A model generated the notes under the pieces. The model saw only the letters and a program-made list of their open reading frames with translations. It did no database searches and was not told where the DNA came from. 64,000 nt of DNA from Bauldia sp. (GTDB lineage: Bacteria; Pseudomonadota; Alphaproteobacteria; Rhizobiales; Kaistiaceae): the NCBI RefSeq assembly GCF_020442045.1, contig NZ_JAGRLA010000059.1, positions 1 to 64,000 of the forward strand, read 5' to 3'. Numbering within the stretch: position 1 is the stretch's first letter; the number at the start of each line of letters is the position of its first letter. A program made the translations under genes and the position numbers. Below, piece after piece: positions 32,501-55,639 of this stretch.

Positions 32501-33601
32501 ATGCCCTCCGATCCCGTCGTCGTCACACTCCGGCCCAACCAGTTCACCGAGAAGGAGCGCGTCCTCGCCCGGTTCGGAGGGCTGACCGCCTCGACATTCC
32601 TCTATGACAGCGGTGTGGCCGGCCTCCGCATCGCCAACGCGGTCGGGCATATCGACCTCCTCCCCTTCCATGGCCAGCAGATCTGGGACGCGGTGTTTCG
32701 CGGACGGACGCTGACCATGCGCTCGATGTTCAGCGAACCGATCCCGACGCGCGACTACCTGATGAACTACGGCGGCTTCTTCCTCCATTGCGGCGCGACC
32801 GCGATGGGCAATCCGGGGCCGGAAGACACCCATCCGCTCCACGGCGAATTGCCCAACGCGCCTTACCGTGACGCGGCGCTGGTGGTCGGCGAGGACGAGG
32901 ATGGCCCGTTCATGGAGTTGACCGGCCGCTATCAGCATACGGTCGCCTTCGCGCATAACTATGTCGCCCAGCCGACGATGCGCCTCGGGGCGGAGAGCAG
33001 CCGGATCACCCTCGACCTCTCGATCCGCAACCTCAAGCACACGCCGATGGAGCTGATGTATCTCGCCCACATCAATTTTCGACCGGTCGATGGCGCGGTG
33101 CTGATCGACGCGGTGCCGGACGACACCGACCACATCGGTTTCCGCACGACCCTGCCGTCCAACTTCGCCCCGTCCGACGCGTTTCTCGGCCTGATCGATG
33201 ACGTCCAGCGCGACCCGGCAACGCACCGGACGATGGCCGCCGGCCGCGCGATCGACCCGGAGCTGGTGATGACGCTGGCATTTCCCTCCGACGCAGCCGG
33301 CTGGGCACACAGCATGCAGCTCCATCCGGACGGATCGGCGGATTTCGTCAGCCACCGGCCGGGCGAGCTCGGCAAGGGCGTCCGCTGGATGACCCGGACG
33401 GGGGACCAGGATGCGGTCGGCATCTTCCTGCCGGCGACGGCCGGCGCCAACGGCTACGTCGCCGAAAAGGCCAAGGGCAACGTGCTGATGCTGGACCCGC
33501 AGGGCGAGTTCCGCTGCCGCCTCGCCTTCGGCGCGCTCGAAGCGCCGGAAGCGGAGGCCCTGCGCAAGGATATCGAGACCGTTCGAGCCGCCCCGGCCTG
33601 A
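32501..33601 (+). CDS. DUF4432 family protein (aldose 1-epimerase-like fold)
   Basis: A 366-aa protein matching the DUF4432 pattern: FGGLTASTFLYDSGVAGLRI (in part), LPFHGQQIWDAVFRGR, NYGGFFLHCGATAMGNPG and HPLHGELPNAPY. The His residues of HCG and HGELPNAPY lie where galactose-mutarotase-like enzymes have their catalytic residues. The family is found in sugar-catabolic loci and is thought to act on sugars or sugar acids; no reaction is established for this member. It begins the sugar island, converging with a sugar ABC importer (31 bp from its ATPase gene). The start is supported by a moderate purine-rich site (GTGAGAAG). Confidence 0.85.
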   Translation: MPSDPVVVTLRPNQFTEKERVLARFGGLTASTFLYDSGVAGLRIANAVGHIDLLPFHGQQIWDAVFRGRTLTMRSMFSEPIPTRDYLMNYGGFFLHCGATAMGNPGPEDTHPLHGELPNAPYRDAALVVGEDEDGPFMELTGRYQHTVAFAHNYVAQPTMRLGAESSRITLDLSIRNLKHTPMELMYLAHINFRPVDGAVLIDAVPDDTDHIGFRTTLPSNFAPSDAFLGLIDDVQRDPATHRTMAAGRAIDPELVMTLAFPSDAAGWAHSMQLHPDGSADFVSHRPGELGKGVRWMTRTGDQDAVGIFLPATAGANGYVAEKAKGNVLMLDPQGEFRCRLAFGALEAPEAEALRKDIETVRAAPA

Positions 33602-34745: not shown

Positions 34746-35579
34746 CTAGCCGCGGATGGCGCCGAGCGTCAGTCCGCGAACGAGATGTTTCTGGACCAGG
34801 ACACCGAGAATGATCGACGGGACCAGCGAGACGATGGCGAGCGCGCTGGCCTCCCCGTACTGCGCCCCCTGGAAGCTCAGGAACGAGCGAAAGACGGTGG
34901 GCAAGGTGAAGGCATTGCGGCTGGTCAGCACCAGAGCAAAGAAGAACTCCGTCCAGCACGCGATGAAGATGAAGACCGCGGCCGCGACGATGCCGGGCGC
35001 GGCGAGCGGAATGCCGACGCTCCACATCGCCCCCCAGCGCGTACAGCCGTCGACCAGCGCGGCCTCCTCCAGCGAGCGCGGCATCTGCCGGAAATAGGCG
35101 TACATCATCCAGACGCCGACCGGCAGCGTGAACACCGTATAGGCGAGGATCATGCCGATATGGGTGTCCTGCAATCCGATCAGCCGGTAGTTCAGGAAGA
35201 GCGGCAGGATGATGGCGATCGGCGGCAGGAAGCGCTGCGACAGGACCCAGAAGGACAGGTGCTGGCCGCCGGTGTTGAAGCGGGCGAGGCTGTAGGCCAT
35301 CAGCGTGCCGACGAGACACGACAGGGCCGTCGCCGAGATCGAAATGATGAGGCTGTTCACCAGCCCCTGCAGCCCGCGATAGTCGAAGAGCGCCGCGGTG
35401 AAATGCACCATCGTCGGATGGTCCGGGAACCACACCGGCGGCACGGCGAGGTAATCGTCGCTCGGCTTGATCGAGGTGACGAACACCCAGTAAAGCGGCG
35501 CCAGCACGAAGATCAGGAAAAGGGTCAGGACGACGATGCGGCTGACCGGGATCCTTCGGCGTCTGGTCCAGGCAGCCAT
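34746..35579 (-). CDS. Sugar ABC importer permease (UgpE/MalG-like)
   Basis: A 277-aa permease with six hydrophobic segments. The first helix is IVVLTLFLIFVLAPLYWVFV and the EAA loop is EEAALVDGCTRWGAMWSVGI. The pattern TSIKPSDDYLAVPPVWFP after helix 1 is normal for MalG-type permeases. The start at 35579 lies 2 bp after the stop of the partner permease, so they are translationally coupled. A longer open frame to 35960 overlaps the partner and is rejected. Confidence 0.92.
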   Translation of the reverse strand: MAAWTRRRRIPVSRIVVLTLFLIFVLAPLYWVFVTSIKPSDDYLAVPPVWFPDHPTMVHFTAALFDYRGLQGLVNSLIISISATALSCLVGTLMAYSLARFNTGGQHLSFWVLSQRFLPPIAIILPLFLNYRLIGLQDTHIGMILAYTVFTLPVGVWMMYAYFRQMPRSLEEAALVDGCTRWGAMWSVGIPLAAPGIVAAAVFIFIACWTEFFFALVLTSRNAFTLPTVFRSFLSFQGAQYGEASALAIVSLVPSIILGVLVQKHLVRGLTLGAIRG

Positions 35580-35581
35580 CG

Positions 35582-36517
35582 TCAATTCGCCTCCGGTTTC
35601 AGCAGACGCCGGACAAGGAAGATGATCACCAGCAGCGTCAGGATCAGGAAGATCCAGGAACCGGCCGTCGCCCGCGACAGATGGAACTGCGCAAAGCCGA
35701 TCGTGTAGAGATAGAAGGACGCGGTATAGGTCTGCGTGCCGGGCCCGCCGCCGGTCATGATGAAGATCGTGTCGAAGAGACGGATCGCGTCGAGCAGCCG
35801 GAAGGTGACCGCCAGCAGGATCATCGGCGAGATGTAGGGGATGGTGATGTGCCAGAAGGTCTGCCACGCCCCGACACCGTCGAGCTCCGCCGCCTCGTAG
35901 ACATGGGGCGGGATCGCCGTCAGGCCGGCCAGCAGGATGACGAACATGAAGGGCGTCCACTGCCAGACATCAGCGAGCACGAGCGCGATGAAGTTGTAGG
36001 GGAACTGGGTCAGCCAGCCGATCGTCACCTCCTGCCCGAGCAACTGGCCAAGCAGGTAATTGGTCGGTCCGAAGGGCCGCTGGAGGAGCAGCGCCCAGGC
36101 CTGTCCGACGACAACCGGGCTGATGAAGAGCGGCACGATGAGGATCGAGATGATCAATCCCCGGCCTCTGAAGGAGCGGGCCATCACCATGGCCACCGCC
36201 AGGCCGAGCAGCAGCTCGATCAATACGTTGGAGACCGTCAGGACGACGGTGACGAGCAGCGAATAGCGGGCGACCGGATCCGAGACCACCTGCTCGAAAT
36301 TCTTCAGGCCGACAAAGGCGTGTCCCGGAATCTGGAAGTCGTAATTAACGAAGAGAACCCAGATCGAGAAGATCAGCGGGTAGATCGAGATCGCCAGGAT
36401 GAGCAGCGCCGCCGGCGCGACGAGCAGCCATTTGAAGCGCCTGTCGCTGCGGCTCGCGGAGGGAAGGTTCCTGCGCGGAATGCTCGGGGGAGTCTCGCCA
36501 AGGGCGACGTCAGCCAT
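35582..36517 (-). CDS. Sugar ABC importer permease (UgpA/MalF-like)
   Basis: A 311-aa permease with six predicted helices and the EAA loop YEAAELDGVGAWQTFWHITI. A polar N-terminal tail of about 28 residues precedes helix 1 (WLLVAPAALLILAISIYPLI). It pairs with the following MalG-type permease. A strong stem-loop separates it from the binding-protein gene upstream. Confidence 0.92.
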   Translation of the reverse strand: MADVALGETPPSIPRRNLPSASRSDRRFKWLLVAPAALLILAISIYPLIFSIWVLFVNYDFQIPGHAFVGLKNFEQVVSDPVARYSLLVTVVLTVSNVLIELLLGLAVAMVMARSFRGRGLIISILIVPLFISPVVVGQAWALLLQRPFGPTNYLLGQLLGQEVTIGWLTQFPYNFIALVLADVWQWTPFMFVILLAGLTAIPPHVYEAAELDGVGAWQTFWHITIPYISPMILLAVTFRLLDAIRLFDTIFIMTGGGPGTQTYTASFYLYTIGFAQFHLSRATAGSWIFLILTLLVIIFLVRRLLKPEAN

Positions 36518-36632: not shown

Positions 36633-38291
36633 CTAGAGCTTCACCGCCATGCCCAGGGCCTCGACCGTGTTTCCGACGGTCGAACCCGGCAGCTTGAGGA
36701 ACTCCTCGTAGAACGCCTTCTGCTTGTCCGCACCGAGGTTCTCGGTGGTGGCATCCCACTCCGCCGCGGCGGTCTTCAGCGCCTCCATCGGGTCGGTGCC
36801 GGCCCATACGGACGTGCACATGCGGTCGAGCGTCAGCTGATAGTCCTGCGCTCCAGGCATGATCGGATCGAGCAGACCGACATTGGCCGAGGCATTGAGG
36901 TTGGCCAGGTATTCCGGCGCGCTCGGGAAGAGTTCGCCGTAGAGCTCCGACTTGAAGTGCGAGATCCGATAGGGATCACGCAGCGCGTAGGGGAGCATGC
37001 ACCGGGCCAGCGATACCGGCGGCGAGCAGGCCCACTGGATGAACAGATAGGCCGCCTCCAGGTTGGCCGAATCCGCGGCGATCGCCTTGTTGAACCCGAA
37101 GGCGTGCTCCGGATGCCCGCCGGGAACGATCGCATAACCCACCTTCCCCGCGATCGAGGACTGCGGGATGAAGCTGATCGCCTTGTCGCTCTGCGAGTAA
37201 CCGGCGCTCATGCGACCGGTCGGCGGCCACGAATAGATCATCGCGACCTTGCCCTGCAGCCAGGCGACCCACAACGACACCGCGTCAAGCTCGTCGTTGC
37301 CCGGAATCGACGCCGCATTCGCAGCCTTCATGTTCTCCAGCGTCTTGACGCCGGCATCCGAGGCCAGCGCCGCCTTCATATTCTCGTCGAAGAAGACGCC
37401 GCCATTCGACCGGTATTGCTGCATGAAGTCGAACTGGTTGCCGGGCGATGCCGCCTTGCGGAAGTGTCCCGCACCATAGACATTCGGCGCCATCTGGTCG
37501 GTGATGAACTGGGCGACCTGGACGTAATCCTCCCAGCTCTTCGGCACTTCGAGCGGCTTGTCGAACTTGGCCTGGTAAGCCTCCCTCAGCTTCGGATCAT
37601 CGAAGATGTCCTTGCGGTAGTAGAGGGCGAACATGTCGCCGTCATCGAAGAAGCCCCAGATCTTGCCCTTGTAGGTGGGCAGGGCCTTGTAGAGCGGATG
37701 ATAGTCGTCGAGATCCGCCATGTTCATGTACTTGGCGATGAAGTCGTCGAGCGGGGCAATCACGCCACCGTCGGCGAGCGCCGGAGTCCACTGCGGCTGC
37801 AGGTCGAGGACGTCATAGGCGCCGGAGCCGGCGATATGCTCGGCGATCGGCTTCGAGTACATGTCCGGCGGCGGCAGCTCGACCACCGTCGACTTGATGC
37901 CGGTCAGCTCGTCCCAGAGCGGACCGGAGAAGTTGCGCGGATCGAGCGCCTGCAGGCCCGCCTCGTAGGTCATGTTGAGGTTCGCGCCGGCGAATTGCTT
38001 GGCGGCTTCGACAGCCCGATAGGCCGAGCCATCCATCGGCCCTTCGGTGGAGGCCTTGTAGGCGGCCAACTGGGCCTTGCCGAGCGGCGTGTCCGGGTTC
38101 TCGAGCTCCATCTTGGCTTGCGCGAGAGCGGAGTTCACGAACGGCGAAAGCGCCGATCCGGATATGGCGAGCATGCCGGTCGCCTGACCGAAACGCTTGA
38201 TGAAGTCGCGGCGGGTCGGTTCTCCCCGCAGCCAGGCATCGACCTCTTCGCTAAGGCCCGCCTCGAAATCACGTCTTTCCCTGTCATCCAT
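36633..38291 (-). CDS. Tat-exported extracellular sugar-binding protein
   Basis: A 552-aa family 1 solute-binding protein. The twin-arginine signal is TRRDFIKRFGQATGMLAISG, starting at residue 26 after a charged tail, with probable cleavage after SALAQA. The fold is that of MalE/UgpB-like proteins; YDVLDLQPQWTPALADGGVI and WGFFDDGDMFALYYRKDIF (in parts) belong to the N-lobe. At 552 aa it is longer than the usual 400-450. The ligand is not predictable, but the five-gene enzymatic operon just upstream suggests a sugar or sugar acid. It has its own promoter. Confidence 0.88.
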   Translation of the reverse strand: MDDRERRDFEAGLSEEVDAWLRGEPTRRDFIKRFGQATGMLAISGSALSPFVNSALAQAKMELENPDTPLGKAQLAAYKASTEGPMDGSAYRAVEAAKQFAGANLNMTYEAGLQALDPRNFSGPLWDELTGIKSTVVELPPPDMYSKPIAEHIAGSGAYDVLDLQPQWTPALADGGVIAPLDDFIAKYMNMADLDDYHPLYKALPTYKGKIWGFFDDGDMFALYYRKDIFDDPKLREAYQAKFDKPLEVPKSWEDYVQVAQFITDQMAPNVYGAGHFRKAASPGNQFDFMQQYRSNGGVFFDENMKAALASDAGVKTLENMKAANAASIPGNDELDAVSLWVAWLQGKVAMIYSWPPTGRMSAGYSQSDKAISFIPQSSIAGKVGYAIVPGGHPEHAFGFNKAIAADSANLEAAYLFIQWACSPPVSLARCMLPYALRDPYRISHFKSELYGELFPSAPEYLANLNASANVGLLDPIMPGAQDYQLTLDRMCTSVWAGTDPMEALKTAAAEWDATTENLGADKQKAFYEEFLKLPGSTVGNTVEALGMAVKL

Positions 38292-38521: not shown

Positions 38522-39571
38522 TCAACTTCCGAAACGGCTGCCATAGTCGGCGAGCCGCCTCTTCCAACCCTCGGTCGCGAGGATGTCGCGATTGACGACG
38601 CCCCGCGGTTCGCGACCATGCATCACGTCGAGCACTGCCCTGACATCGGCGGCGCCGTTGCCGGCAAAGCACTGGTCCGTCCAGCAAAGCGCGTGCGGCG
38701 CGAGCAGGACGTTGTCGAGCTTCAGGATCGGATCGTCGGCATCCGGCGGCTCGGTTTCGAGCACGTCGAGGCCGGCGCCCGCGATCCGTCCTTCCTGGAG
38801 GACCCTGGTCAGCGCCTTCTGGTCGACGATCGGACCGCGCGCGGTGTTGATCAGATAGGCGGTGGGCTTCATCAGCGCGAGATGCTTGGCATTGACGATG
38901 TGCCGCGTCGCCTCGCTCAGCGGACAGCTCACCGAAAGGACGTCCGCGCGACGGAAGAGCTCCTCCAGGCCGACGAGCTCGATGCCGAGCTCGGCGGCGA
39001 CCGCCTTGTCGGCATAGGGATCATGGGCGATGTATTTCATGTCGAAGGGCATCGCCAGGCGATAGAGCTCGGCGCCGATATTGCCGATGCCGAGCGACCC
39101 GAGCGTGCGGCCGACGAGGCCGACGCCCATGTGATCCGAGCGCTTCGCAAATCCTGCCGCCGCCTGGCGGGTCAGCTGATCCTTGACCTTGAGCTTGCCG
39201 GTCAGGGCGAGCATGAAGGTCATGATCGACACGGCGACCGGCCGGCGCACGCCGTCCGGCGTGATGACCAGCGCGATGCCGGCATCGGTGCAGGCATCGA
39301 CATCGACCGTATCGTAGCCGACGCCGAACCGGGCAACGACCGTCAGCCGCCCGCTCTCCGGCACGCTTTGCCGGGCGAAGCGATGGGCGAGGAGGATGAG
39401 CGCGTCGAAATCCTCGAGCTGCCGGCCACTCAGCGTGTCCTCCGATTCCAGGAACCGCAGCTCGACATTCGGTTCGTCCCGCAACGGATCGAGGTCGAAG
39501 TCGGGAAAGGTCGGCGCCCCGTCGGCCTTGTTGAAATCGCCCGAGAGCGCGACGCGGAAGACGTCCGTCAT
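38522..39571 (-). CDS. D-isomer-specific 2-hydroxyacid dehydrogenase
   Basis: A 349-aa NAD-dependent dehydrogenase. The Rossmann motif GIGNIGAEL and the three catalytic residues are visible: Arg in NTARGPIVD, Glu in LETEPPD and His in APHALCW. It is related to phosphoglycerate, glyoxylate and hydroxypyruvate reductases. The start at 39571 overlaps the aldolase stop by 4 nt. It is the last gene in the coupled RLP-kinase-dehydrogenase-aldolase row, so its substrate is probably a 2-oxo or 2-hydroxy acid produced there, for example glycolate/glyoxylate or tartronate semialdehyde. Confidence 0.88.
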   Translation of the reverse strand: MTDVFRVALSGDFNKADGAPTFPDFDLDPLRDEPNVELRFLESEDTLSGRQLEDFDALILLAHRFARQSVPESGRLTVVARFGVGYDTVDVDACTDAGIALVITPDGVRRPVAVSIMTFMLALTGKLKVKDQLTRQAAAGFAKRSDHMGVGLVGRTLGSLGIGNIGAELYRLAMPFDMKYIAHDPYADKAVAAELGIELVGLEELFRRADVLSVSCPLSEATRHIVNAKHLALMKPTAYLINTARGPIVDQKALTRVLQEGRIAGAGLDVLETEPPDADDPILKLDNVLLAPHALCWTDQCFAGNGAADVRAVLDVMHGREPRGVVNRDILATEGWKRRLADYGSRFGS

Positions 39572-40350
39572 GTCCCGCCTCCAACGCCGGACCGGATGCC
39601 GTCCAGCCCCTGGCGCAGCGCGACCTGCAGCAGCCAGACGTCGCCGTGATAGACGATCAGGTCCCATCCCTCCCCGGCGAGCGCGACGCCGGAGGCGATG
39701 TCGGTGACCATCCGCCCCAGCCCCTTCCCGTGCCGCTTGCCGGCTTCGAGGACCTTGTTGAGGGCGGCCTTGTAGTCGGGATGATCGAATTGTCCCGGAA
39801 TCCCCATGCTGGCGGTGAGGTCCATGTGCCCGACCCAGAGGGCGTCGACCCCCTCGAGCGCGGCAATGCCGTCGACATTCTCGACGCCCTCGGCGGTCTC
39901 GATCAGGGCGATCAGCCGGTTGCGCTCGTTGGCGGCGGCAAGGCCCTCCACCACCGGCCCCATGTGGTAGCGATCGTTGCCGAGCGCCGGAGCCAGGCCC
40001 CGCTTGCCGATCGGGGTATATTTCATCTTTTCGATGACCGACCTCGCCTGCTCCACCGAACCGAGCATCGGGATGATGATGGCCTGGGCGCCGATGTCGA
40101 GGGCGCGGGCGATGTGATCGTAGGAGTCGGAGGGAACCCGCACGAGAACCGGGACGTCGGCTGCCTCGAAGTAGCGGAGCGCGCGGTTCAGGCTCTCGAA
40201 GGAATTGCCGCTGTGCTCCATGTCGAAGAAGACATATTCGGCGCCGGCTTCCTTCAGGATGTATCCGATGCCGGGGGTGACGAACTCGCCGACATAGTGC
40301 CCGAGCCGGAGCCCCGGGCGATCCAGGACGGCACCAACTCGGGCCCTCAT
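39568..40350 (-). CDS. HpcH/HpaI family aldolase
   Basis: A 260-aa class II pyruvate-dependent aldolase (2-keto-3-deoxy acid or 4-hydroxy-2-oxoacid type). The metal site is formed by Glu in ALIETAEGVENVDGIA and Asp in VGHMDLTASMG. The catalytic arginine lies in VLVRVPSD, and FFDMEHSGNSFE gives the N-terminal conserved acidic segment. It overlaps both neighbours by 4 nt. A pyruvate aldolase is not part of the described D-apionate/RLP route, so its presence in this coupled operon is notable. Confidence 0.88.
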   Translation of the reverse strand: MRARVGAVLDRPGLRLGHYVGEFVTPGIGYILKEAGAEYVFFDMEHSGNSFESLNRALRYFEAADVPVLVRVPSDSYDHIARALDIGAQAIIIPMLGSVEQARSVIEKMKYTPIGKRGLAPALGNDRYHMGPVVEGLAAANERNRLIALIETAEGVENVDGIAALEGVDALWVGHMDLTASMGIPGQFDHPDYKAALNKVLEAGKRHGKGLGRMVTDIASGVALAGEGWDLIVYHGDVWLLQVALRQGLDGIRSGVGGGT

Positions 40351-41198
40351 GACGCCTTTCCTCCCGGATTGCAGATTTCCCTGACGCTGGCCATCACCTC
40401 GTCCGGCTCAAGCACCTTGAGCCAGTCATCCCTGAGAAGCTTCGGCTTCGCCTTCTCGATGGCGTAGAGCGCGCCATCGGAGAACCGGCCCGGGAAATCC
40501 TCGAAGATGATCCCCATCTCGATGCCGATATGTCCGAGCATGAAATCCCTGGCCGCCTCGGCCGGCACGCCCCTGGCGACGACCGCGTCCGTCGCCTCGC
40601 GAAGCGCGGTGATCAAGGTGGCGGCGATCGTCTCCGACATCGCCGGTTCGAGAATGGCCATGTCTTCCACCGTCACCCGATGGGACCGGCTGACCGGCTT
40701 GTAGATCGCCTTCGCGATCGCTTCGCACCGAGCATAGTCGGCATCGGGGCCCTGCATCAGGGCGCAAACAATCGCCTGCATGGCAAGGACGCCGCCGAAA
40801 TAATCCTTCTGCGCCTCGCGCGTCGGCTCGTAGCGGAAGATCGAGGGATGGCAGGGATGCGTCACGAAATAGGTGACGTCGTCGCGCTTCGGCAACTCGC
40901 CGGCATGGGGCGCGGCGGCATCCAGCATGATGATGCCGGTACCGGGCCGGACCTGATCGATGAAGCCGTGGGCGATCTTGCCGATCAGGGCGTCCGGCAC
41001 GGCCATCAGGACGACGTCCGCGCTGCCCAATGCCTGTCCCATCTCGACGCATTCGACGCCGGTGGCTTCCTTGAGGCGCTGCCGGCCGGCCTCGCTGACC
41101 TCGACATGAAGGACGTCATAGGGTTCGCCTTCAAGGTTGGTGGCGAGCCGGACGCCCATCTTTCCGCCCGCGCCGAGCAGGGCGATCGTTTGCGTCAC
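40347..41198 (-). CDS. NAD(P)-dependent dehydrogenase, D-apionate oxidoisomerase (ApnO)-like
   Basis: A 283-aa Rossmann protein starting with TIALLGAGGKMGVRLATNL. The C-terminal part (HPCHPSIFRYEP, YKPVSRSHRVTVEDMAILEPA, FMLGHIGIEMGIIF) resembles the phosphogluconate-dehydrogenase-like C-terminal domain found in ApnO. ApnO oxidises D-apionate to 3-oxo-isoapionate with carbon rearrangement. The start is a GTG at 41198 with GGGAGG 6 nt upstream; it overlaps the kinase stop by 4 nt (GTGA). The RLP and DUF1537 kinase neighbours match the ApnO context. Assignment to ApnO is from memory of the family and needs a profile search; another acid-sugar dehydrogenase is possible. Confidence 0.7.
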   Translation of the reverse strand: MTQTIALLGAGGKMGVRLATNLEGEPYDVLHVEVSEAGRQRLKEATGVECVEMGQALGSADVVLMAVPDALIGKIAHGFIDQVRPGTGIIMLDAAAPHAGELPKRDDVTYFVTHPCHPSIFRYEPTREAQKDYFGGVLAMQAIVCALMQGPDADYARCEAIAKAIYKPVSRSHRVTVEDMAILEPAMSETIAATLITALREATDAVVARGVPAEAARDFMLGHIGIEMGIIFEDFPGRFSDGALYAIEKAKPKLLRDDWLKVLEPDEVMASVREICNPGGKAS

Positions 41199-42571
41199 TG
41201 ACGTCCTCCCATATGCAGTGGCCGACCGTTTTCGACCATTCCGAAGAAGTCGACGGGCCCCATCTGCCCGCCCTTCAATGCGATCTCTATTCCGTCGAGC
41301 GCCGGTTCGCCGGAGCGCCCCCGGCTTATGGCGCAGGCCGGCGCAAGCTCGACCTCCGCTTCCAGCGCGTCGACGCCCATTCCCGCCAATGCGTGGCCCG
41401 ATGTGTCGCCGCCGGCAATCGCGATGCGCCGGACATCTCCGCTGGTGACGACGGCCTTCAATATGGTGCCAAGGCCGTGTCCGATGCGGGCGTTGATGTC
41501 CTCCTCGGTCTCGCCCGAGCGGAGAACTGCCTGCTTGAGCGCGGGGATGGCCGCGTCGTCGGCGCCCCTTGCGGTGAAGACGAGCGGTGCCGCTCCCTTG
41601 TGGAGCACGGTCAGCGCCTGCTCGACCGCCCGGTCGATGGCGGCGCGCCAGCGGGTTTCGTCGACCGCCGCCTCGGCCTCGAGACGTATTCCGGCGAAGC
41701 CGTTGATCTCCGCCCATTCGATCTGGCGACCGGTGACCGGCGAACACGAACCCGAGACGGCGGCGATGCGCTCCGCGCCGGCGCTCCGCGGCGGCGGTGC
41801 CTCACCGATCAGGCCGGCCTTTCGCCAATGGGCGATCAATGCATATTCGACCCCCTGGCTGCCGATCGCCAACAGCCTTTCGCCGCGGTTCTCCCAGATC
41901 AACCGACCGGCCTCGGCGAGGCTGTCCTCGTCGAGGACGTCGATGGCGACGATCTCCGCTCCGCCCGAGACCTCCCGCCTGAGGGCATCATCGCTGTCGC
42001 CGCTCGCAAGCGACAGGAAATCGACGAGCCCGATGCTGCGGTCGGTCTGCCTGGCGAGGTGCAGGCGGACGTCGGCTTCGTCCATCGGCGTCGTCGGATG
42101 CCGGGATACCGCCGGATGACGGTCGAGCCGGTAGCCGACACCCTCGACCGTGGCGAAGAGATTGCCGAAGGCCTGGTAGCGATGGATGGGCGGCGCAGCG
42201 ACCAGCAGCGGGTGCCAGGCACCGCCGAGGATCGGCGCCGCAAGATCGATCGCCTTGCCGATCGAGCCGACATGCGGCGCGGAATCGAAGGTCGAGCACA
42301 CCTTGTAGTGGGTGATCGGGGCACCGATCGGCTCAAGCGTCCCGAAGATCGCCGGGAGGTGTTCCTCCATCCACGAGGGACTGCGCGAACGCGCCAGGCC
42401 CGCGACGCCGATGCCGCGATATCCCGCGAACCGGCCGATGTCCTCGCCGGTCGGAGGGCCGAGGAACAGGACGGTGGGCAGCCCGGCGAAGGTCAAGACC
42501 TCCATGACGGCCGCGGAGCCGGTGAAGTCGTCGCCGTAGAAGGCGACGAGGTGATCGGCCGGCAGGCTCAT
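41195..42571 (-). CDS. DUF1537 four-carbon/branched acid-sugar kinase, OiaK-like
   Basis: A 458-aa acid-sugar kinase. The N-terminal substrate motif is YGDDFTGS and the C-terminal ATP-binding motif is IAGGDTSGHAL. The central stretch CSTFDSAPHVGSIG is also typical. DUF1537 enzymes phosphorylate erythronate, threonate, 3-oxo-tetronates or 3-oxo-isoapionate; the members next to an RLP are the OiaK type. Its start overlaps the RLP stop by 4 nt and its stop overlaps the ApnO-like start by 4 nt. A longer open frame to 43093 lies inside the RLP gene and is rejected. Confidence 0.85.
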   Translation of the reverse strand: MSLPADHLVAFYGDDFTGSAAVMEVLTFAGLPTVLFLGPPTGEDIGRFAGYRGIGVAGLARSRSPSWMEEHLPAIFGTLEPIGAPITHYKVCSTFDSAPHVGSIGKAIDLAAPILGGAWHPLLVAAPPIHRYQAFGNLFATVEGVGYRLDRHPAVSRHPTTPMDEADVRLHLARQTDRSIGLVDFLSLASGDSDDALRREVSGGAEIVAIDVLDEDSLAEAGRLIWENRGERLLAIGSQGVEYALIAHWRKAGLIGEAPPPRSAGAERIAAVSGSCSPVTGRQIEWAEINGFAGIRLEAEAAVDETRWRAAIDRAVEQALTVLHKGAAPLVFTARGADDAAIPALKQAVLRSGETEEDINARIGHGLGTILKAVVTSGDVRRIAIAGGDTSGHALAGMGVDALEAEVELAPACAISRGRSGEPALDGIEIALKGGQMGPVDFFGMVENGRPLHMGGRQ

Positions 42572-43815
42572 CGGGCGAGTGCCTCCAGCGCGACGCGGAA
42601 TTCCGGATGGGTCTTCGCATAGGCCTCGGCATCGATTCCCGAAGCGGCCGCTTCCCAGGCCTGCCGAAGCCCCCGCACGCCGGCCGCAATTCCGTCCGGA
42701 TGGGCCATGATGCCGCCACCGGCGGCATAGATCAGGTCGGTGCCGCCGAGCGCCCGCCAAGTGTCGGCGGCCTGCGCGGCGGTCTGCCCCGAACTGAAGA
42801 CCGGCATGGCGACACAGGGCTTGTCGGGGAACATCGGCGCCAGCAGGCTCTTCGCCGAACGAACGACGCTGGCGTCTTCCTCGCAGAACTTGTTGCGGAT
42901 GCCGTTGACATGCATGTGGTCGGCGCCTGCAAGCCGCCACAGCTTGGACCAGGCGGGGTAATCCCAGCCGAGCATCGGGGCGCGCGACAGGTAGCCCCAG
43001 CCGTTGCGATGGGCGTGGATCGGCAGCGCGGCGTGACGGCGAAGCTCGATCATTCCCACCAGTCCCACCGAGTTGAGGCTGGCCATGACGCATGTGCCGC
43101 CGAGCGACAGGACCAGGTCGTGACGGCGGCGCATCTCGTCGAGGTCACCGGTCACATTGAAGGCGAACATCACCTTCTTGCCGGTCCGGTCGGCATGGCG
43201 GTCGATCACCGCCATCACCATCCGGGCGCGCGCCTCGAAAGGACAGGCCGGCCCGTCGGACTGGAGCTCGTCATCCTTGATGAAGTCGATTCCGGCACCG
43301 GCGAGCGTATCGACCAGATCGGCCGTCGCCTCCGGCGTCAGCCCCACGCTCGGCTTGACGATGGTGCCGATCAGAGGACCGTCGGCGACGCCGGACAGGC
43401 GCCGCGTGCCTTCGATGCCGAATTGCGGTCCTTCGTAGCGCGTGGCGAAGGCCCGCGGCAGGTCGATGTCGACAATCCGCAGACCCGAGAACTGCTTGAG
43501 CTCGAAGAGATTGCCGGCCACGGTCGCCACCAGATTGGGCAGCGACGGGCCGAGATTTTCGAGCGGCCAGGACAGTTCGACCGCGCAGCGATGGTAGATC
43601 CTGCCGGCTCGCGCGCCGGGCAGGCTGGGCGCGTCGACATCCTCGACCACGGTCAGGCTTTCGATCCGCGCTCCGGACCGCTCGCGGATGTCGGCGGTCT
43701 CGCCCGGCACGGCGACGAACGTCCCGGACGACTGCTCTCCGGCCATCACCTCGACGGCACGGCGCGGCTCGTCGGCCGTCTCGACAATGTAACGCGCGTG
43801 GATACGCTCGCTCAT
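42568..43815 (-). CDS. RuBisCO-like protein, OiaX-type
   Basis: A 415-aa RuBisCO large-subunit homologue. By eye most catalytic positions are kept: Lys of GTIVKPSVG (K175), the carbamylated Lys and metal ligands of IKDDE (K201, D203, E204), His-Arg of IHAHRNG (H294, R295), His of DHMHVNG (H327), loop-6 Lys of RNKFCEE (K334), Ser of FSSGQ (S379) and GGG of AAGGGIMAHP. K177 is replaced by Ser and W66 by Phe, so it is not a CO2-fixing RuBisCO. RLPs paired with a DUF1537 kinase (OiaX) cleave 3-oxo-isoapionate 4-phosphate to 3-phosphoglycerate and glycolate. No small subunit, phosphoribulokinase or activase is present. Confidence 0.85.
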   Translation of the reverse strand: MSERIHARYIVETADEPRRAVEVMAGEQSSGTFVAVPGETADIRERSGARIESLTVVEDVDAPSLPGARAGRIYHRCAVELSWPLENLGPSLPNLVATVAGNLFELKQFSGLRIVDIDLPRAFATRYEGPQFGIEGTRRLSGVADGPLIGTIVKPSVGLTPEATADLVDTLAGAGIDFIKDDELQSDGPACPFEARARMVMAVIDRHADRTGKKVMFAFNVTGDLDEMRRRHDLVLSLGGTCVMASLNSVGLVGMIELRRHAALPIHAHRNGWGYLSRAPMLGWDYPAWSKLWRLAGADHMHVNGIRNKFCEEDASVVRSAKSLLAPMFPDKPCVAMPVFSSGQTAAQAADTWRALGGTDLIYAAGGGIMAHPDGIAAGVRGLRQAWEAAASGIDAEAYAKTHPEFRVALEALAR

Positions 43816-43967: not shown

Positions 43968-44270
43968 CTATGCGGCCTCCACCACGAGGCTGCACTCGAC
44001 AAAGGACTTCTTCAGAACCAGATCCGCGCTTGCCCGATCGAAGTGACGGAAGTGCCCGGTCTCGATATGCGCCTCGAAAGCGGCGCGATCGGTGTAGATT
44101 TCGTAGAGCAGGATCCGGTCGGCCTCGCCCGAGGGCTCCAGCACGTCGAACCGCCGGCAGCCCTCTTCATTGGTGAAGGAGGCACGCGCGTTGCTGTCGA
44201 TCATCGTCCGGAATTCAGCGCGCTTGCCCGGCTTCAGCACGAAATCGACGATGACCACATAACCGGACAT
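43968..44270 (-). CDS. Small ABM-domain protein (antibiotic biosynthesis monooxygenase family)
   Basis: A 100-aa dimeric-barrel protein beginning with GYVVIVDFVLKPGKRAEFR and including EGCRRFDVL, YEIYTDRAAFEAHIETGHF (in part) and the typical ending. This family includes quinol monooxygenases (YgiN) and related small enzymes. The start at 44270 overlaps the regulator stop by one base (TGATG). It stands between the GntR regulator and the RLP operon, 152 bp from the RLP start. Its role in sugar breakdown is unclear. The ORF could be read further upstream, but that part lies inside the regulator gene. Confidence 0.83.
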   Translation of the reverse strand: MSGYVVIVDFVLKPGKRAEFRTMIDSNARASFTNEEGCRRFDVLEPSGEADRILLYEIYTDRAAFEAHIETGHFRHFDRASADLVLKKSFVECSLVVEAA

Positions 44271-44977
44271 CAGCGTGCCTCGCTGACGTCGGCGTAGCGC
44301 AGCGCGACGAATTCGAGATGCTCGCGCATCGCCTGATCGGCGCGATCGGCATCGCGGGCCGCCACCGCCTCGAAGATCGCGCGATGAGCCTTGTAGGAAA
44401 TGACGTCGACGCCGGGCGCCAGCGTCGTCTGGCGCTGCTCGAGCAGCCATTCGGCAAAGGCGGCGTGGATCGCCGTGAAGATCGGGTTCCGCGGGATCTC
44501 CGCGAGGACGTAGTGGAACGCCACGTCGGTGCGCTCGAAACGGCCGAAATCGCCGATCGACTCGCGATTGTCCTCAAGCGCAGCCTCGAAATCCGCAAGA
44601 TCCTGCTCGGTGGCATGGAGAGCCGCATGTCGCGCCAGCCCCGTCTCGAAGAAGACCCGGACGCCCTGGAAATTCCGGATGCCGTCCGGCGCGGCGAGCA
44701 TGTGCCGCGCGGTGATCGAAAGCCCGTCGACGACGGACCTGGGCGTCGGCCGCGTGACCCGGGCGCGGGTTCCGGACCGCAATTCGACGAGGCCGAGATT
44801 TTGCAGATGGAAGAGCGCCTCGCGGATCGCCGGGCGGCCGACGCCATAGGCTTCCATCAGTTCGCGCTCGGAGGGAAGCGGGTCGCTTGGTGCGAAATCG
44901 CCGTCGGCAATGCGCTGCTCCAGTCGCTTCGCGACTTCTTCGTAGAGCTTGCGCTGGCGAACCACCGTTCCGGACAT
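44270..44977 (-). CDS. GntR-family regulator (FCD/NanR-like)
   Basis: A 235-aa regulator. The winged helix is ERELMEAYGVGRPAIREALFHL with LGLVELRSGTRARVT; the all-helical FCD domain follows, with conserved Asp/His metal ligands in RTDVAFHYVLAEIPRNP. ATG at 44977 is preceded by GGTATACC, which also serves as a likely operator. NanR-type regulators bind GGTATA repeats. It is the first gene of the minus-strand operon and lies back-to-back with the molybdenum hydroxylase genes on plus, so it probably controls both in response to the sugar acid. Confidence 0.88.
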   Translation of the reverse strand: MSGTVVRQRKLYEEVAKRLEQRIADGDFAPSDPLPSERELMEAYGVGRPAIREALFHLQNLGLVELRSGTRARVTRPTPRSVVDGLSITARHMLAAPDGIRNFQGVRVFFETGLARHAALHATEQDLADFEAALEDNRESIGDFGRFERTDVAFHYVLAEIPRNPIFTAIHAAFAEWLLEQRQTTLAPGVDVISYKAHRAIFEAVAARDADRADQAMREHLEFVALRYADVSEAR

Positions 44978-45085: not shown

Positions 45086-45550
45086 ATGACAACGGTGGGA
45101 ATGACGGTGAACGGGGATCCCGTCTCGGTCGAGACGGAGGACCGCACACTGCTCGTGGAGGTGCTTCGCGACCAGCTCGCTCTGACCGGCACCCATGTCG
45201 CCTGCGACACGTCGCAGTGCGGTGCCTGTCTCGTCCTGATCGACGGGGTCGCGACGAAGTCGTGCACGACCCTCGCGGTGCAGGCGGATGGCTCGGAGAT
45301 CCAGACGATAGAAGGGCTGGCGAAGGACGGCGACCTTCATCCGATGCAGGCCGCGTTCAACGAAAACCACGGTCTCCAGTGCGGCTTTTGCACGCCCGGC
45401 ATGATCATGGCCGGTGTCGACATGGTTCGCCGGCTTGGCAAGGACCTCGACGACGAGACGATCCGAAGCGAGCTGGAGGGCAACATCTGCCGTTGCACAG
45501 GCTACGTAAACATCGTGAAGGCCATCAAGGCCGGCGCGGCGCGGATGTAA
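45086..45550 (+). CDS. Molybdenum hydroxylase small subunit, [2Fe-2S] (CoxS-like)
   Basis: A 154-aa iron-sulfur subunit. The plant-type cluster is [10 protein letters not shown]...KSC (Cys 39-60 region) and the second cluster is LQCGFCTPG with [12 protein letters not shown]. It passes electrons from the Mo site to the FAD subunit. The strong site GGGAGG is 6 nt before the ATG. It is the first gene of coxS-coxL-coxM order, diverging from the GntR regulator. Within a sugar island the likely role is oxidation of an aldose rather than CO. Confidence 0.92.
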
Positions 45551-45596: not shown

Positions 45597-47993
45597 ATGG
45601 CAAACGACGGAATCGGCGCGAGCGTTCCGCGCAAGGAAGATCGACGCTTCACGACAGGACAGGGCACCTATACCGGGGACGTCAACCTCGCCGGTCAGCT
45701 TCATGCGGTCTTCGTGCGCTCGCCGCACGCCCACGCGCATATCAAATCGGTCGATCTGTCAGAGGCGAGCAAGATGCCCGGCGTCGTCGCCATCCATACG
45801 GGAGAGGAGCTCGAGGCCGGTGGCATCAACCATCTGATCTGCGGCTGGGCGATCACCTCCAAGAACGGCTCGGGCATGCGGATGGGCCCCTACCCGCCGC
45901 TGGCGATCGGCAAGGTGCGCTTTGTCGGCCAGCCGATCGTCGCCGTCGTGGCGCGCAGCCGCGACCAGGCCGAGGATGCCGCCGAAGCCGTCCAGATCGA
46001 TTACGAAACCCTCCCCGCGGTTACGAATCCCGTCGACGCGCTGAAGCCCGACGCACCGGCTATCCACGAATTCGAGGCGGATTCCTCGGTCTGGGAGCAC
46101 GGCCGGGCACCCAGCAACCTCATCTTCGACTGGGAGCTCGGCGACGCGGCCGCCACCGACAACGCGATCAAGTCCGCCAAGCACGTCGTCAAGATCGACC
46201 TGGTCAACAACCGTGTCGTGCCGAGCGCCATGGAGGCACGGGCGGTGGTCGCCGACTACCGGTCGTCGGACGGGCATTTCACATTGTGGAACACGACCCA
46301 GAACCCGCATCTCCTGCGGGTGGTGCTCTCCGCCTTCATCAACGTCGCCCCCGAACACAAGCTCAGGATCATCGCGCCCGACGTCGGTGGCGGCTTCGGC
46401 TCGAAGATCTTCACCTATTCGGAGGAGGTGGTCTGCCTGTGGGCGGCCAAGCAAGCCGGCAAGCCGGTGAAATGGGTATCGGGCCGGAACGAGGCATTCC
46501 TGACCGATGCCCATGGCCGCGACCATGTGACGACGGCCGAGATCGCATTTGACGACGACTACAGGATGCTCGGACTGAAGGTCGACACGATCGCCAATCT
46601 CGGGGGCTACATGTCGCTCTTCGCGTCGCTGATCCCGACCTACCTCTATGCGCCGCTGCTGTCGGGCCAATACGTCATCCCGAACATCCATGTGAACGTC
46701 CGCGCCGTCTACACCAATACCGTCCCTGTCGACGCGGTTCGCGGGGCGGGGCGGCCGGAGGCGACCTATGTGCTGGAGCGGCTGATCGAGAAGGCGGCGC
46801 GCGAGCTGGGGGTCGACCGGGCGGAGCTGCGGCGAAAGAACTTCGTTCGCGAGTTCCCCTACCAGACGCCGGTGCTGTGGAAATACGATTCCGGCAATTA
46901 TGACGGCCTGCTCACCAAGGCTCTGGCCGCGTCCAAGTGGGATGATTTCGAGGCCCGCAAGGCGGAAGCGGCCAAGCGCGGCAAGCTGCGCGGCATCGGC
47001 CTTTCCTGCTATATCGAGGCCTGTGGCGTGGCGCCGTCCTCGGCCGAGGGCGGAGCGCTTGGCGCCGGCGTCGGCGTCTGGGAGATGGCGGAGATCAAGG
47101 TCAATCCCGTCGGCACGGTGGAAGTGCTGGTCGGAACGCTGGGTCACGGCCAGGGCCACGAGACCACCTATGCCCAGATCGCGGCCGACCGCTTCGGTAT
47201 CCCGATCGACTCCGTCTCGGTGATCGAGGGCGATACCGACAAGGTCCAGCAGGGGATGGGCACTTACGGCTCGCGAACCGCTGGCAATGGCACGTCGGCG
47301 GTCTACCGCGCGCTCGACAAGATCGAGGCCAAGGCCAAGAAGATCGCCGCCCACCTGCTAGAAGCGTCCGAGGAGGATATCACGATCGCCAACGGCGAGT
47401 TTTCCGTCTCGGGGACCGATCGCAAGGTGACGCTGACCGACGTCTCGCTGGCGGCCTACACCTTCCACAAGCTGCCGAAGGACATCGAGCCCGGCCTCGA
47501 CGAAAAGGCCTATTTCGACCCGACCGACCTCACCTACCCCGCCGGCGCCTTTGTCTGCGAGGTGGAGATCGATCCGGCGACCGGCACGACGGAAGTGGTG
47601 CAGTTCACCGCCGTCGACGACTTCGGCAACGTGATCAATCCGATGATCGTCGAGGGGCAGGTGCATGGCGGTGTCATGCACGGGCTCGGGCAGGCGCTGC
47701 TGGAAGAGGCGAAATACGATCCCGGCAGCGGCCAGCTGATCGCCGGCTCCTACATGGATTACTGCATGCCGCGGGCCCACGACCTGCCGAAGTCATTCGA
47801 CCATGCGTTCCAGAAGACGCCGACCCCCAACAACCCGCTCGGCCTCAAGGGCTGCGGCGAGGCCGGGGCGATCGGTTCGCCGCCGGCGATCATCAACGCG
47901 ATCACCGATGCCCTCGGAACCGAGGACATCTCGATGCCGGCGACGCCGGAGAAGATTTGGCGGGCGCTGCAATCCGCCGGACAGAACGCCTAA
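45597..47993 (+). CDS. Molybdenum hydroxylase large subunit (CoxL-like, form II)
   Basis: A 798-aa xanthine-oxidase-family subunit. The moco-binding motif GGGFGSK, the form II motif RGAGRPEA and the catalytic Glu in [11 protein letters not shown] are visible; [10 protein letters not shown] fits the moco pocket. The CODH form I motif (CSFR) is absent, so this is not an aerobic CO dehydrogenase. The family oxidises aldehydes, purines, nicotinate or sugars. GGGGAGG lies about 6 nt before the ATG. Context points to an aldose or related hydroxylated aldehyde, inferred only. Confidence 0.9.
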
Positions 47994-48009: not shown

Positions 48010-48810
48010 ATGTACCAGACCCGCTATCACCGTCCCGGCAGCGTCGCCGAGGCCGCCGAACTTCTCTCCAAGGCGGAGGACGGTCGCTACGTCGCCGGCG
48101 GCCACACGCTGATCCCGACCATGAAGCACCGGCTTGCCGGGCCTTCCGACCTCGTCGACCTGTCCAGGTTGTCGGAGCTGAAAGGCATCTCCGAGAAGGG
48201 CGGCACCGTGACGATCGGCGCTGCCACCACCCACTATGAGGTGGCGTCGTCGGACGCCGTGAGGAAGGCGATCCCGGCCCTGGCGGCGCTCGCCGGGATG
48301 ATCGGCGATCCCGCGGTCCGCAATCGCGGCACCATCGGCGGTTCGCTGGCCAACAACGACCCCGGCGCCGACTATCCGGCGGCGGTGCTCGGGCTCGGCG
48401 CGACCATCCATACCGACAAGCGGAAGATCGAAGCCGACGACTTCTTCACCGGCTTGTTCACGACGGCGCTGGAAGAGGGCGAAATCATCGTCAAGGTGTC
48501 GTTCCCGGTTCCGAAAAAGGCGGCCTACGAGAAGTTCCACAGCGCCGCCTCGCGCTACGCCCTGACCGGCGTCTTCGTCGCGTCGGCGAAGGACGGCGCC
48601 GTTCGCGTGGCTGTCACCGGCGCCGGTGCCAACGGCGTCTTCCGGGCGGCCGACATCGAGAAGGCGTTGTCGGGAAAGGCGTCGTCCGATGCGATCGATG
48701 CGGTCAGCATTGATCCCTCCGGCCTCCTCTCGGATATCCACGGGTCGGCGGAATATCGCGCCAACCTGGTCAAGGTGATGGCCAAACGGGCCGTTGACGC
48801 GATCGGCTGA
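48010..48810 (+). CDS. Molybdenum hydroxylase FAD subunit (CoxM-like)
   Basis: A 266-aa FAD-binding subunit. FAD-binding motifs are VAGGHTLIPTMKHRL and GTIGGSLANNDPGADYPA, which define the CoxM group. The ATG at 48010 has GGAGG 6 nt upstream. It follows coxL by 16 bp and completes a CoxS-CoxL-CoxM trimer that passes electrons probably to the quinone pool or a cytochrome. Confidence 0.92.
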   Translation: MYQTRYHRPGSVAEAAELLSKAEDGRYVAGGHTLIPTMKHRLAGPSDLVDLSRLSELKGISEKGGTVTIGAATTHYEVASSDAVRKAIPALAALAGMIGDPAVRNRGTIGGSLANNDPGADYPAAVLGLGATIHTDKRKIEADDFFTGLFTTALEEGEIIVKVSFPVPKKAAYEKFHSAASRYALTGVFVASAKDGAVRVAVTGAGANGVFRAADIEKALSGKASSDAIDAVSIDPSGLLSDIHGSAEYRANLVKVMAKRAVDAIG

Positions 48811-48835: not shown

Positions 48836-50794
48836 ATGAACGAACGGGCGATCAAGCTTTTCGGCACCGAGGAACCGGCGCCGGAGCAACGAGTACTGAC
48901 CGCCGGTCCCCTGTCCGCCACTCTCGAGGACGGCCAGCTTCGCTGGATAAGGATCGGCGAGGCGGAGGCGATCCGTGCGATCGCCTTCCTCATCCGGGAC
49001 CGGAACTGGAGCACCGCCAATCCCGAGATCAGCGACCTCGACATCCGGGAAGGCAAGAACGGCTTCAAGGTCACCTTCACCGCCCGCTGCCCGACCGTCG
49101 ATGGCGATTTCACCTGGCGGGGCGAGTTCACCGGGAGCCCCGACGGGACGCTCCGCTGCGTCAGCGTCGGCGCACCCGACCGGGACTTCCTGACCTCGCG
49201 GACCGGCTTCGTCATCCTGCATCCGCTGAAGGGGCTGGTCGGCAAGACCATCACCGTGGAGCACGCCGACGGAAGGAAGAAGAGGCGCCGGGTGCCGGCG
49301 GAAATCGTTCCGGACCAGCCCTTCCTCCTCGTCCGCGGGATGACGCACGAACCCTCGCGCGGCGTCACCGCGGAGATCCGGATGGAAGGCGATACCTGGG
49401 AGACCGAGGACCATCGCAACTGGACGGATGCTTCACTGAAGACCTATAGCCGCCCGCTTTCGCTGCCTTATCCATACGAAGTCGCGAAGGGCGAGGAAAT
49501 CCGCCACACGGTGACGCTGAAATTCTCCGGCAAGCTGCCCAGGGAACCGGGAGCGCCGTCGGGCCCGGTCGTCGTCAAGCTGGGCGATCCGGCCGGCAAG
49601 ATGCCGAAGGTCGGCCTCAGCGTGCTGCCGGAGGATGCGCGGGCGGCGCTGCGTGTCGCGCCACTGGTCAAGGCGGCGGGCGTCCGGCATCTCAACTGCC
49701 GCATCGACCTGCGGGTCCGGGGCTGGCGGAAGCCGCTTGCCGACTACGCCAGGCTCGCGAAGGAGACCGGCGCCGGCATCGTCCTCGAGATCATCATTCC
49801 GGGCATCGACACGCCGGCCAGGGAACTCGGCGAGGCCGCCAAGGCGGTGCGGGCCGCGAAGCTCAAGCCGCAGGCCGTCGTCGTGACGCCGGCCGCCGAC
49901 CTCAAGTCCTATCCCCCCGGCACGCCCTTCCCGGAAGGCGTCCCGAGCTTCGAGGCGGTCGCCGCGGCGGCGCGAAAGGCATTCCGGAACGTCCGGATCG
50001 GCGGCGGCATGTTGTCGAACTTCACCGAGCTCAATCGCAAGCGGCCGCCAGCCAAGACCTTCGACTTCATCACCCATGCCACCTCGGCAATGATCCACGC
50101 GGCCGACGACCAGTCGGTGATGGAGACGCTGGAATCGGTCGAGCACATCATCCATTCGGCCAAGGCGATCATCGGCAAGACGCCGTACCGGATCGGCCCC
50201 TCCCATATCGGCAACAGCTTCAATCCCTACGGGGCGACGGTGACCGCCAATCCCGATGGCGGGCGGGTGACCATGGCGCGCGTCGAGCCGCGCCATCGCG
50301 GCCTGTTCGGCGCGGCCTGGCATCTCGGCTATCTCAGCCAGGTCGCGGGCGGCGGGATCGAGGCCGTGACGATGGCTTCGCCGGTCGGCGAATTCGGCAT
50401 CGTCTACCGGAAGCAGAAATACCCGCAGCCCTTCTACGACACCACGCGCGGCGCGAAGGTCTATCCGGTCTATCACGTGATCCGCGGCATCGCCGAAGCC
50501 GCCGGGGCGAAGCAAATCGATGCCCGGTCGAGCGACACCGGCCGGGTACGCACGCTTGCCTGGAAGAAGGGACGAACCACCCATGTCTGGCTCGCCAACC
50601 TGCGCGACGAGACGATCGAGGTGCAGCTTCGCGGTCTCGCCAGGAAGGGCAAGGCGACCCTGATGATGCTTGACGAGGACGGCTTCGGGCAGGCGGTGCG
50701 CGATCCCGACTTCGCCGACAGGGCGGAGCCCTTTGCCGGCACGACGGTCACGCTTCCGCCCTTCGCGGTGGCACGCCTCGACGTTGCCGGTTAG
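48836..50794 (+). CDS. Putative D-apionate lactonase (ApnL)-like protein
   Basis: A 652-aa cytoplasmic protein with no signal or membrane segment. It has a beta-rich N-terminal part (residues 1-240), a TIM-barrel-like middle (PKVGLSVLPEDARAALRV, LNCRIDLRVRGWRKPLADYAR in parts, EIIIPGIDTPARELGEA) and a C-terminal beta-rich part (TTHVWLANLRDETIEVQLRGL). ApnL of the D-apionate pathway is an orphan family of about this size, and the neighbours (RLP, kinase, ApnO-like) match, so I suggest a lactonase. A glycoside-hydrolase-like enzyme is the alternative. The ATG at 48836 has GAGG 8 nt upstream; a TTG at 48794 overlapping coxM is less likely. Confidence 0.5.
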   Translation: MNERAIKLFGTEEPAPEQRVLTAGPLSATLEDGQLRWIRIGEAEAIRAIAFLIRDRNWSTANPEISDLDIREGKNGFKVTFTARCPTVDGDFTWRGEFTGSPDGTLRCVSVGAPDRDFLTSRTGFVILHPLKGLVGKTITVEHADGRKKRRRVPAEIVPDQPFLLVRGMTHEPSRGVTAEIRMEGDTWETEDHRNWTDASLKTYSRPLSLPYPYEVAKGEEIRHTVTLKFSGKLPREPGAPSGPVVVKLGDPAGKMPKVGLSVLPEDARAALRVAPLVKAAGVRHLNCRIDLRVRGWRKPLADYARLAKETGAGIVLEIIIPGIDTPARELGEAAKAVRAAKLKPQAVVVTPAADLKSYPPGTPFPEGVPSFEAVAAAARKAFRNVRIGGGMLSNFTELNRKRPPAKTFDFITHATSAMIHAADDQSVMETLESVEHIIHSAKAIIGKTPYRIGPSHIGNSFNPYGATVTANPDGGRVTMARVEPRHRGLFGAAWHLGYLSQVAGGGIEAVTMASPVGEFGIVYRKQKYPQPFYDTTRGAKVYPVYHVIRGIAEAAGAKQIDARSSDTGRVRTLAWKKGRTTHVWLANLRDETIEVQLRGLARKGKATLMMLDEDGFGQAVRDPDFADRAEPFAGTTVTLPPFAVARLDVAG

Positions 50795-55625: not shown

Positions 55626-55639
55626 GGCTCTTTGCGTAT

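Follow-up and report, generated by a model that had tools for sequence, protein, structure and literature searches.

Apiose is a constituent of rhamnogalacturonan II in the cell walls of plants. Among the RuBisCO-like proteins (RLPs), OiaX is a decarboxylase, and 3-phosphoglycerate and glycolate are the product pair of OiaT. Carter et al. 2018 reportedly described an oxidative pathway for D-apiose and D-apionate, which includes an RLP transcarboxylase/hydrolase of the OiaT type. A passage of PMC6302742 that cites Carter et al. 2018 assigns decarboxylation to the RLP of Agrobacterium radiobacter K84 and transcarboxylation/hydrolysis to that of Xanthobacter autotrophicus. Here, we describe a locus on a stretch of 64,000 nucleotides of Bauldia sp. 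(NCBI RefSeq assembly GCF_020442045.1, contig NZ_JAGRLA010000059.1, positions 1 to 64,000; hereafter called the window), in which genes for an RLP, a DUF1537 family kinase, an ApnO-like oxidoreductase, an HpcH/HpaI class II aldolase and a D-2-hydroxyacid dehydrogenase follow one another. The locus is a real, well-formed composite operon of a known-type RLP route and a conserved aldolase-dehydrogenase module; new is this second module, which stands alone in other bacteria and is joined here to the RLP route. The reading that we favour, with confidence and doubt evenly balanced, is that of a composite catabolic locus: one polycistron combines two alternative modules, mostly found apart elsewhere, for the downstream catabolism of an apiose-type sugar acid. 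Gene content, modularity, co-occurrence and the shared transporter family are direct observations on the sequences, from which we infer every reaction given below for the window.

All five genes lie on the minus strand and encode the RLP (42568..43815, 415 amino acids, PF00016/PF02788), the OiaK-like DUF1537 family kinase (41195..42571, 458 amino acids, PF07005/PF17042, SBD_N/NBD_C), the ApnO-like oxidoreductase of the PGDH_C family (40347..41198, 283 amino acids, GTG start, PF16896 with 207 bits), the aldolase (39568..40350, 260 amino acids, PF03328 with 106 bits against a gathering cut-off of 25) and the dehydrogenase (38522..39571, 349 amino acids, PF02826 with 185 bits and PF00389 with 45 bits, both over the gathering scores). 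An earlier note on this DNA had described five genes of these families joined by four overlaps of 4 nucleotides (at 42568, 41195, 40347 and 39568), which is borne out by the coordinates and the Pfam matches; three of the overlaps read ATGA and one GTGA. Overlap statistics were computed on related loci, where 262 of 1330 co-directional neighbour pairs share such an overlap (262 of 791 when the gap is below 60 nucleotides), and the chance of four in succession is about 0.002-0.01, assuming independence. Since these overlaps are common in related loci, a run of four is unusual, not extraordinary, and lies within operon norms. The RLP-kinase overlap is kept in 50 of 71 loci, the kinase-ApnO overlap in 9 of 30 and the aldolase-dehydrogenase overlap in 9 of 31; that between ApnO and aldolase is found in the window only, the spacing being 29-30 nucleotides in other loci. 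Base composition was checked for a recent transfer of the RLP block, and neither G+C nor third-position G+C stood out.

The distribution of the two modules was followed in 397 genomes of the order, in the 80 nearest RLP loci plus the window, and in a class-wide sample of 220 genomes (G and L numbers denote genomes and loci); genes of the relatives were called with a codon-usage caller, which was checked against the window. The kinase is present in the nearest 80 RLP loci and ApnO usually so, and the aldolase-dehydrogenase pair directly follows ApnO in three of the 81 (the window, L028 and L033). A search with the aldolase found homologues in 35 of the 397 genomes, 29 of which have the dehydrogenase adjacent, and the usual order in these 29 is GntR-(ABM)-aldolase-dehydrogenase-SBP-MalF-MalG-UgpC-ApnL, in which SBP is a solute-binding protein and ApnL a lactonase. 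An ApnL homologue is present in 24 of the 29, compared with 39 of the 368 other genomes (Fisher p 6e-17; phylogeny not corrected for). Seven genomes with the pair and ApnL are without a related RLP (G024, G181, G224, G228, G283, G308 and G384), and six of these are without any ApnO-like gene, the seventh being G228 (44% identity). We rejected as the main reading a single linear pathway of all five enzymes, which the earlier note had held probable as one pathway, because the pair stands as its own unit in genomes without a related RLP and follows ApnO in so few RLP loci. The earlier note had further offered the pair as either a branch or a new downstream step; its existence as a conserved unit of its own speaks for the former, and its presence in genomes without a related RLP against the latter. 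In the class-wide sample, 13 of 220 genomes had dehydrogenase homologues, and the aldolase and ApnL are also present in several of the loci examined. A dehydrogenase homologue of 45% identity is found at 8001-9035 of L306 (Rhodococcus ruber pmega_1), beside two dihydroxy-acid dehydratase genes and with no aldolase, and in L021, L026 and L034 the gene after ApnO, again with no aldolase, encodes a different homologue of the D-2-hydroxyacid dehydrogenase (27-30% identity).

The congener G015 carries the window locus (molybdenum dehydrogenase, ApnL, GntR, ABM, aldolase, dehydrogenase and transporter) without RLP-kinase-ApnO, and a cassette of the latter kind is encoded on another of its contigs. 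Most genes of this locus share 73-83% identity with those of the window (GntR 80%, molybdenum dehydrogenase 77-83%, ApnL 75%); the ABM protein shares 64%. Lactonase and regulator families are common to RLP-kinase-ApnO loci and aldolase loci, and in a tree of the SBPs, those of RLP-only loci (L003, L004 and L044) are nested within those of aldolase-only loci with good support. Because their transporter SBPs are shared and interleaved, the modules look like interchangeable branches, which suggests that they may be alternative routes by which a single class of imported substrates is broken down.

The window RLP scores 456.9 bits against the OiaX model NF042437, below the curated cut-off of 700; genuine OiaX proteins, found in 25 genomes, reach 758-791 bits and window-type RLPs 360-488 bits among the 397 genomes of the order. 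A tree of 109 RLPs unites the OiaX sequences in one clade (support 100 in the Shimodaira-Hasegawa-like approximate likelihood ratio test, SH-aLRT), and the window RLP lies outside it, among ApnO-linked RLPs. At all 36 diagnostic positions that separate OiaX from non-OiaX proteins it carries the non-OiaX residue, and its K154, K180-D-D-E183, H267 and K309 are among the charged residues that are invariant in both clades. An identity as OiaX was therefore rejected. A grouping with the methionine-salvage enolase MtnW (2,3-diketo-5-methylthiopentyl-1-phosphate enolase), which the earlier note had set beforehand as its refuter, did not occur, the scores being 121 bits for TIGR03332 (cut-off 513.6) and 159 bits for NF007095 (cut-off 409), compared with 457 for OiaX. 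No OiaT model was among the NCBIfam matches of the window RLP, and its best named relatives include RLPs of Xanthobacteraceae/Ancylobacter (70-71%). With OiaX excluded, OiaT-type chemistry yielding 3-phosphoglycerate and glycolate is likely for this protein. The earlier choice of OiaX as the yardstick for that product pair does not stand, as the pair is that of OiaT and the window RLP falls outside the OiaX clade.

The kinase scores 547.5 bits against the OiaK model NF042436, missing the cut-off of 700, with OtnK as the next best model at 135 bits; by its best model, it is predicted to be OiaK-like, i.e., of the 3-oxo-isoapionate kinase type. No curated ApnO model was matched by the window PGDH_C protein, whose closest solved structure is 5t57; it is called ApnO-like for its family and its linkage to RLP and kinase, and such a gene is present in most RLP loci. 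The window's genome holds a second ApnO-like (PGDH_C) gene (G000:C150:25228-26058), which shares 45% identity with the window copy. Judged by family and linkage, RLP-kinase-ApnO is an apionate-type cassette, in support of the route already proposed for these three genes, to which an ApnL-like lactonase that had been overlooked can be added. A second type of RLP-kinase locus, which contains most of LysR, SDR (short-chain dehydrogenase/reductase) and TRAP (tripartite ATP-independent periplasmic) transporter genes in each case, is represented by L030, L032, L053, L066, L067, L069, L076 and L079, in each of which the RLP lies at about position 10001; no ApnO or ApnL homologue was found in the stretches of these eight loci that were examined, and their substrate is possibly another acid sugar.

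The range 38522-43815 omits a number of linked genes. Upstream, on the minus strand, are a NanR-like GntR/FadR regulator (44270..44977; NF003011 271 bits, over the cut-off of 260) and an LsrG-like ABM-domain protein (43968..44270; PF03992; LsrG model 37.6 bits, below cut-off), a candidate keto-isomerase whose gene sits between the GntR and aldolase genes in relatives. Downstream on the same strand follows an ATP-binding cassette (ABC) transporter, which consists of an SBP (SBP_bac_1, 36633..38291, PF01547), MalF/MalG-type permeases (35582-36517 and 34746-35585) and a UgpC-type ATPase (33633-34733), the order of permeases and ATPase being the same in relatives; beyond it, on the plus strand, lies a DUF4432 protein (32501..33601, PF14486), a putative sugar mutarotase. 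Divergent from the operon, on the plus strand, are the genes of a CoxS/CoxL/CoxM-type molybdenum dehydrogenase (45086-45550, 45597-47993 and 48010-48810), which is conserved in G015 and is a candidate aldose dehydrogenase; each of its subunits has models for glyceraldehyde dehydrogenase (gamma/alpha/beta) among its top matches, none over cut-off. The same strand encodes the ApnL-like aldonolactonase (48836..50794, the open reading frame being openable from a TTG at 48794), which scores 590 bits over nearly the full ApnL model NF049900 and misses the cut-off of 750. It is this lactonase that points most clearly to an apionate-type substrate, and the acid is probably apionate, a sugar acid of plants. 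A neighbouring sugar-acid locus at 50848-57966 contains an ABC transporter, an SDR, an FCD-domain regulator and an IlvD/EDD-family dehydratase, the last near L-arabinonate dehydratase (859 bits, cut-off 882).

Based on family membership and conserved linkage, the SBP-MalFGK transporter would import the substrate, the CoxSLM-type dehydrogenase would oxidise the aldose and the ApnL-like lactonase would open the lactone. In a first branch, the ApnO-like enzyme, the OiaK-like kinase and the non-OiaX RLP would then act in turn, most likely yielding 3-phosphoglycerate and glycolate. The aldolase and dehydrogenase most likely act parallel to this route, not downstream of it. We tentatively propose, as an idea that has a real chance of being right and a larger one of being wrong, that they form a new route for branched aldonates, which is independent of RLP and ApnO and shares one operon with the RLP route here. 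By oxidation of the (2R)-hydroxyl, the dehydrogenase would convert D-apionate to 2-oxoapionate, which the aldolase would split in a retro-aldol reaction between C3 and C4 into formaldehyde and 2-oxotetronate. Cleavage at this bond would give the exact entry compound of OtnI, OtnK and OtnC, and an isomerase, either OtnI or perhaps the ABM protein, would act with OtnK and OtnC, whose genes lie elsewhere in the window's genome, to convert it to dihydroxyacetone phosphate (DHAP) and CO2. To our knowledge, this second branch has no earlier description.

OtnK and OtnC are the 3-oxo-tetronate kinase and decarboxylase. Their genes in the window's genome score 568 bits (NF043035, cut-off 350; G000:C173:3304-4536) and 290 bits (NF043034, cut-off 250; G000:C173:2675-3280), and FrmA is encoded as well. 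In relatives, ApnL of the aldolase operon is followed by OtnK and OtnC in G228 and G068 and by OtnK in G135; in G224 the two genes are preceded by ApnL and ABM, and in G004 both lie near the aldolase. Altogether, OtnK is next to or near the aldolase operon in 5 of 24 genomes (binomial p 2e-7), with OtnK and OtnC over the curated cut-offs. G095 has aldolase, OtnK and OtnC in immediate succession and, instead of the D-2-hydroxyacid dehydrogenase, a gene for an LldD-like dehydrogenase nearby. A strict requirement of the aldolase module for OtnK/OtnC was rejected, as five aldolase genomes are without OtnK. Formaldehyde and hydroxypyruvate are known substrates of HpcH/HpaI aldolases (PMC7610986). 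The window dehydrogenase is 81% identical to that of the congener and departs at 1 of 104 near-invariant columns. The window aldolase resembles HpaI, GarL and YfaU, far under the equivalog cut-offs, and retains H46, R71, E151 and D177, presumably the catalytic residues, as in HpaI. A gene for S-(hydroxymethyl)glutathione dehydrogenase (L271, G308:C40:208259-209377) lies near the ApnL homologue of one genome that has the aldolase operon but not a related RLP, a single case.

Several observations weigh against the favoured reading. The window aldolase has a long tree branch, shares 49% identity with that of G015 and deviates at 6 of 60 near-invariant columns, A124G and H125N included, which is the most of any core-clade member; given this divergence its specificity may differ, and the enzyme may have been replaced or shifted in specificity as the two operons came together. 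The OtnI-like gene of the window's genome reaches 287 bits, below the cut-off of 325. G308 and G384, which have the aldolase and ApnL, are without a related RLP, an ApnO-like gene, OtnK and OtnC, so that the second branch would need another exit there. Other combinations of cassette and aldolase with differing gene orders (G064/G159/G245, G037 and G071/G231), together with three changes on the RLP tree for the joining, hint at repeated joining; however, the approximately unbiased test does not reject a single clade for those RLPs whose loci also contain the aldolase (p-AU 0.355), and repeated independent joining is thus not established. Finally, the window lactonase falls among the lactonases of aldolase loci, outside the clade of curated ApnL proteins (at least 750 bits), and ApnL homologues also occur in D-erythronate/L-threonate loci, some aldolase-locus lactonases being sister to these; the acid could therefore be a tetronate or another relative.

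This last point leads to an alternative that we regard as unlikely, in which the operon would place a module for a C4 acid beside the apionate cassette. The ApnL-like lactonase would open a tetronolactone, the dehydrogenase would make 2-oxotetronate from (2R)-tetronate, and the aldolase would split it into hydroxypyruvate and formaldehyde, or OtnI, OtnK and OtnC would convert it to DHAP. ApnL homologues are found in loci with DenD, LtnD, OtnI, OtnK and OtnC over curated cut-offs, the sister relationship to some aldolase-locus lactonases has a support of 92, and OtnK/OtnC adjoin the aldolase operon as described; yet aldolase and OtnK would be competitors for the same intermediate, and neither the transporter, regulator and lactonase families held in common with RLP-kinase-ApnO loci nor the joining of the aldolase module to that cassette in several lineages would be explained. 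The tetronate loci themselves, L280-L284 (G130, G225, G045, G278 and G321) and L285 (G336), have the order GntR-RbsBAC-ApnL-DenD-...-OtnC-OtnK, with LtnD and/or OtnI in most, which suggests that their ApnL homologues are tetronolactonases below the ApnL cut-off.

A second alternative, by analogy with GarL/GarR, is that the aldolase splits a 2-oxo sugar acid into hydroxypyruvate and an aldehyde, and that the dehydrogenase reduces hydroxypyruvate to D-glycerate. The resemblance of the aldolase to HpaI/GarL/YfaU, the use of hydroxypyruvate by members of its family (PMC7610986) and the resemblance of the dehydrogenase to glyoxylate/hydroxypyruvate reductases would fit; we consider it improbable, however, as GntR-aldolase-dehydrogenase-transporter-ApnL recurs alone, a minimal operon without a conserved gene that makes the 2-oxo acid. 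Least probable, if by little less so, is that both enzymes process the RLP products, the dehydrogenase interconverting glycolate and glyoxylate or acting on 3-phosphoglycerate and the aldolase using glyoxylate: the models and structures nearest to the dehydrogenase, none of them close or over cut-off, are those of phosphoglycerate dehydrogenase and glyoxylate reductase, and the other homologue in L021, L026 and L034 follows ApnO, but genomes that have no related RLP, hence no RLP products from that source, also conserve the pair, and most RLP loci are without it.

If the proposed second branch is true, it would add a further route for degrading the acid of apiose, with catabolic release of formaldehyde from a branched acid by an HpcH/HpaI enzyme, and would give a function to an operon with generic annotation, for example on plasmids of Mesorhizobium and Bradyrhizobium. 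The stacked operon raises the question of why one cell keeps an RLP route beside an aldolase route. It also calls for caution with ApnL homologues below the curated cut-off, not all of which are apionate lactonases.

Compared with known systems, the locus resembles the OiaT-type apionate pathway, with which it shares a clustered RLP, OiaK-like kinase, ApnO-like enzyme, ApnL-like lactonase, GntR regulator and sugar transporter; it differs in having a molybdenum hydroxylase in place of the Gfo/Idh/MocA dehydrogenase, a lactonase outside the curated ApnL clade, and an aldolase and a D-2-hydroxyacid dehydrogenase in the same polycistron. With the OiaX pathway (NF042437) it shares the RLP family, the fold and the common charged residues, whereas the window RLP, at 457 bits against a cut-off of 700, is outside the clade and has 0 of 36 OiaX-type diagnostic residues. 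The D-erythronate/L-threonate pathway (DenD/LtnD, OtnI, OtnK and OtnC) likewise uses a DUF1537 kinase, OtnK, and is linked by the OtnK/OtnC genes that follow the aldolase operon in some genomes and by ApnL homologues in its own loci; no DenD/LtnD, OtnI, OtnK or OtnC gene was found in the window operon or the flanks examined, and the window kinase is OiaK-like (547 compared with 135 bits for OtnK). The GarL/GarR and YfaU/HpaI pathways have in common with the window a PF03328 aldolase with conserved catalytic residues and a dehydrogenase partner; window-type operons are, however, without a conserved dehydratase, and the dehydrogenase is of the D-2-hydroxyacid type, not GarR. On the plasmids pWSM1497 (Mesorhizobium sp. 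WSM1497) and pCB82_1 (Bradyrhizobium sp. CB82), where the annotation is generic (aldolase/citrate lyase, NAD(P)-dependent oxidoreductase, hypothetical protein), the stretch examined was found, unlike the window, to contain neither an RLP nor a kinase nor ApnO; the order around aldolase and dehydrogenase is nevertheless the same, and the dehydrogenases share 78% (pWSM1497) and 67% (pCB82_1) identity with that of the window.

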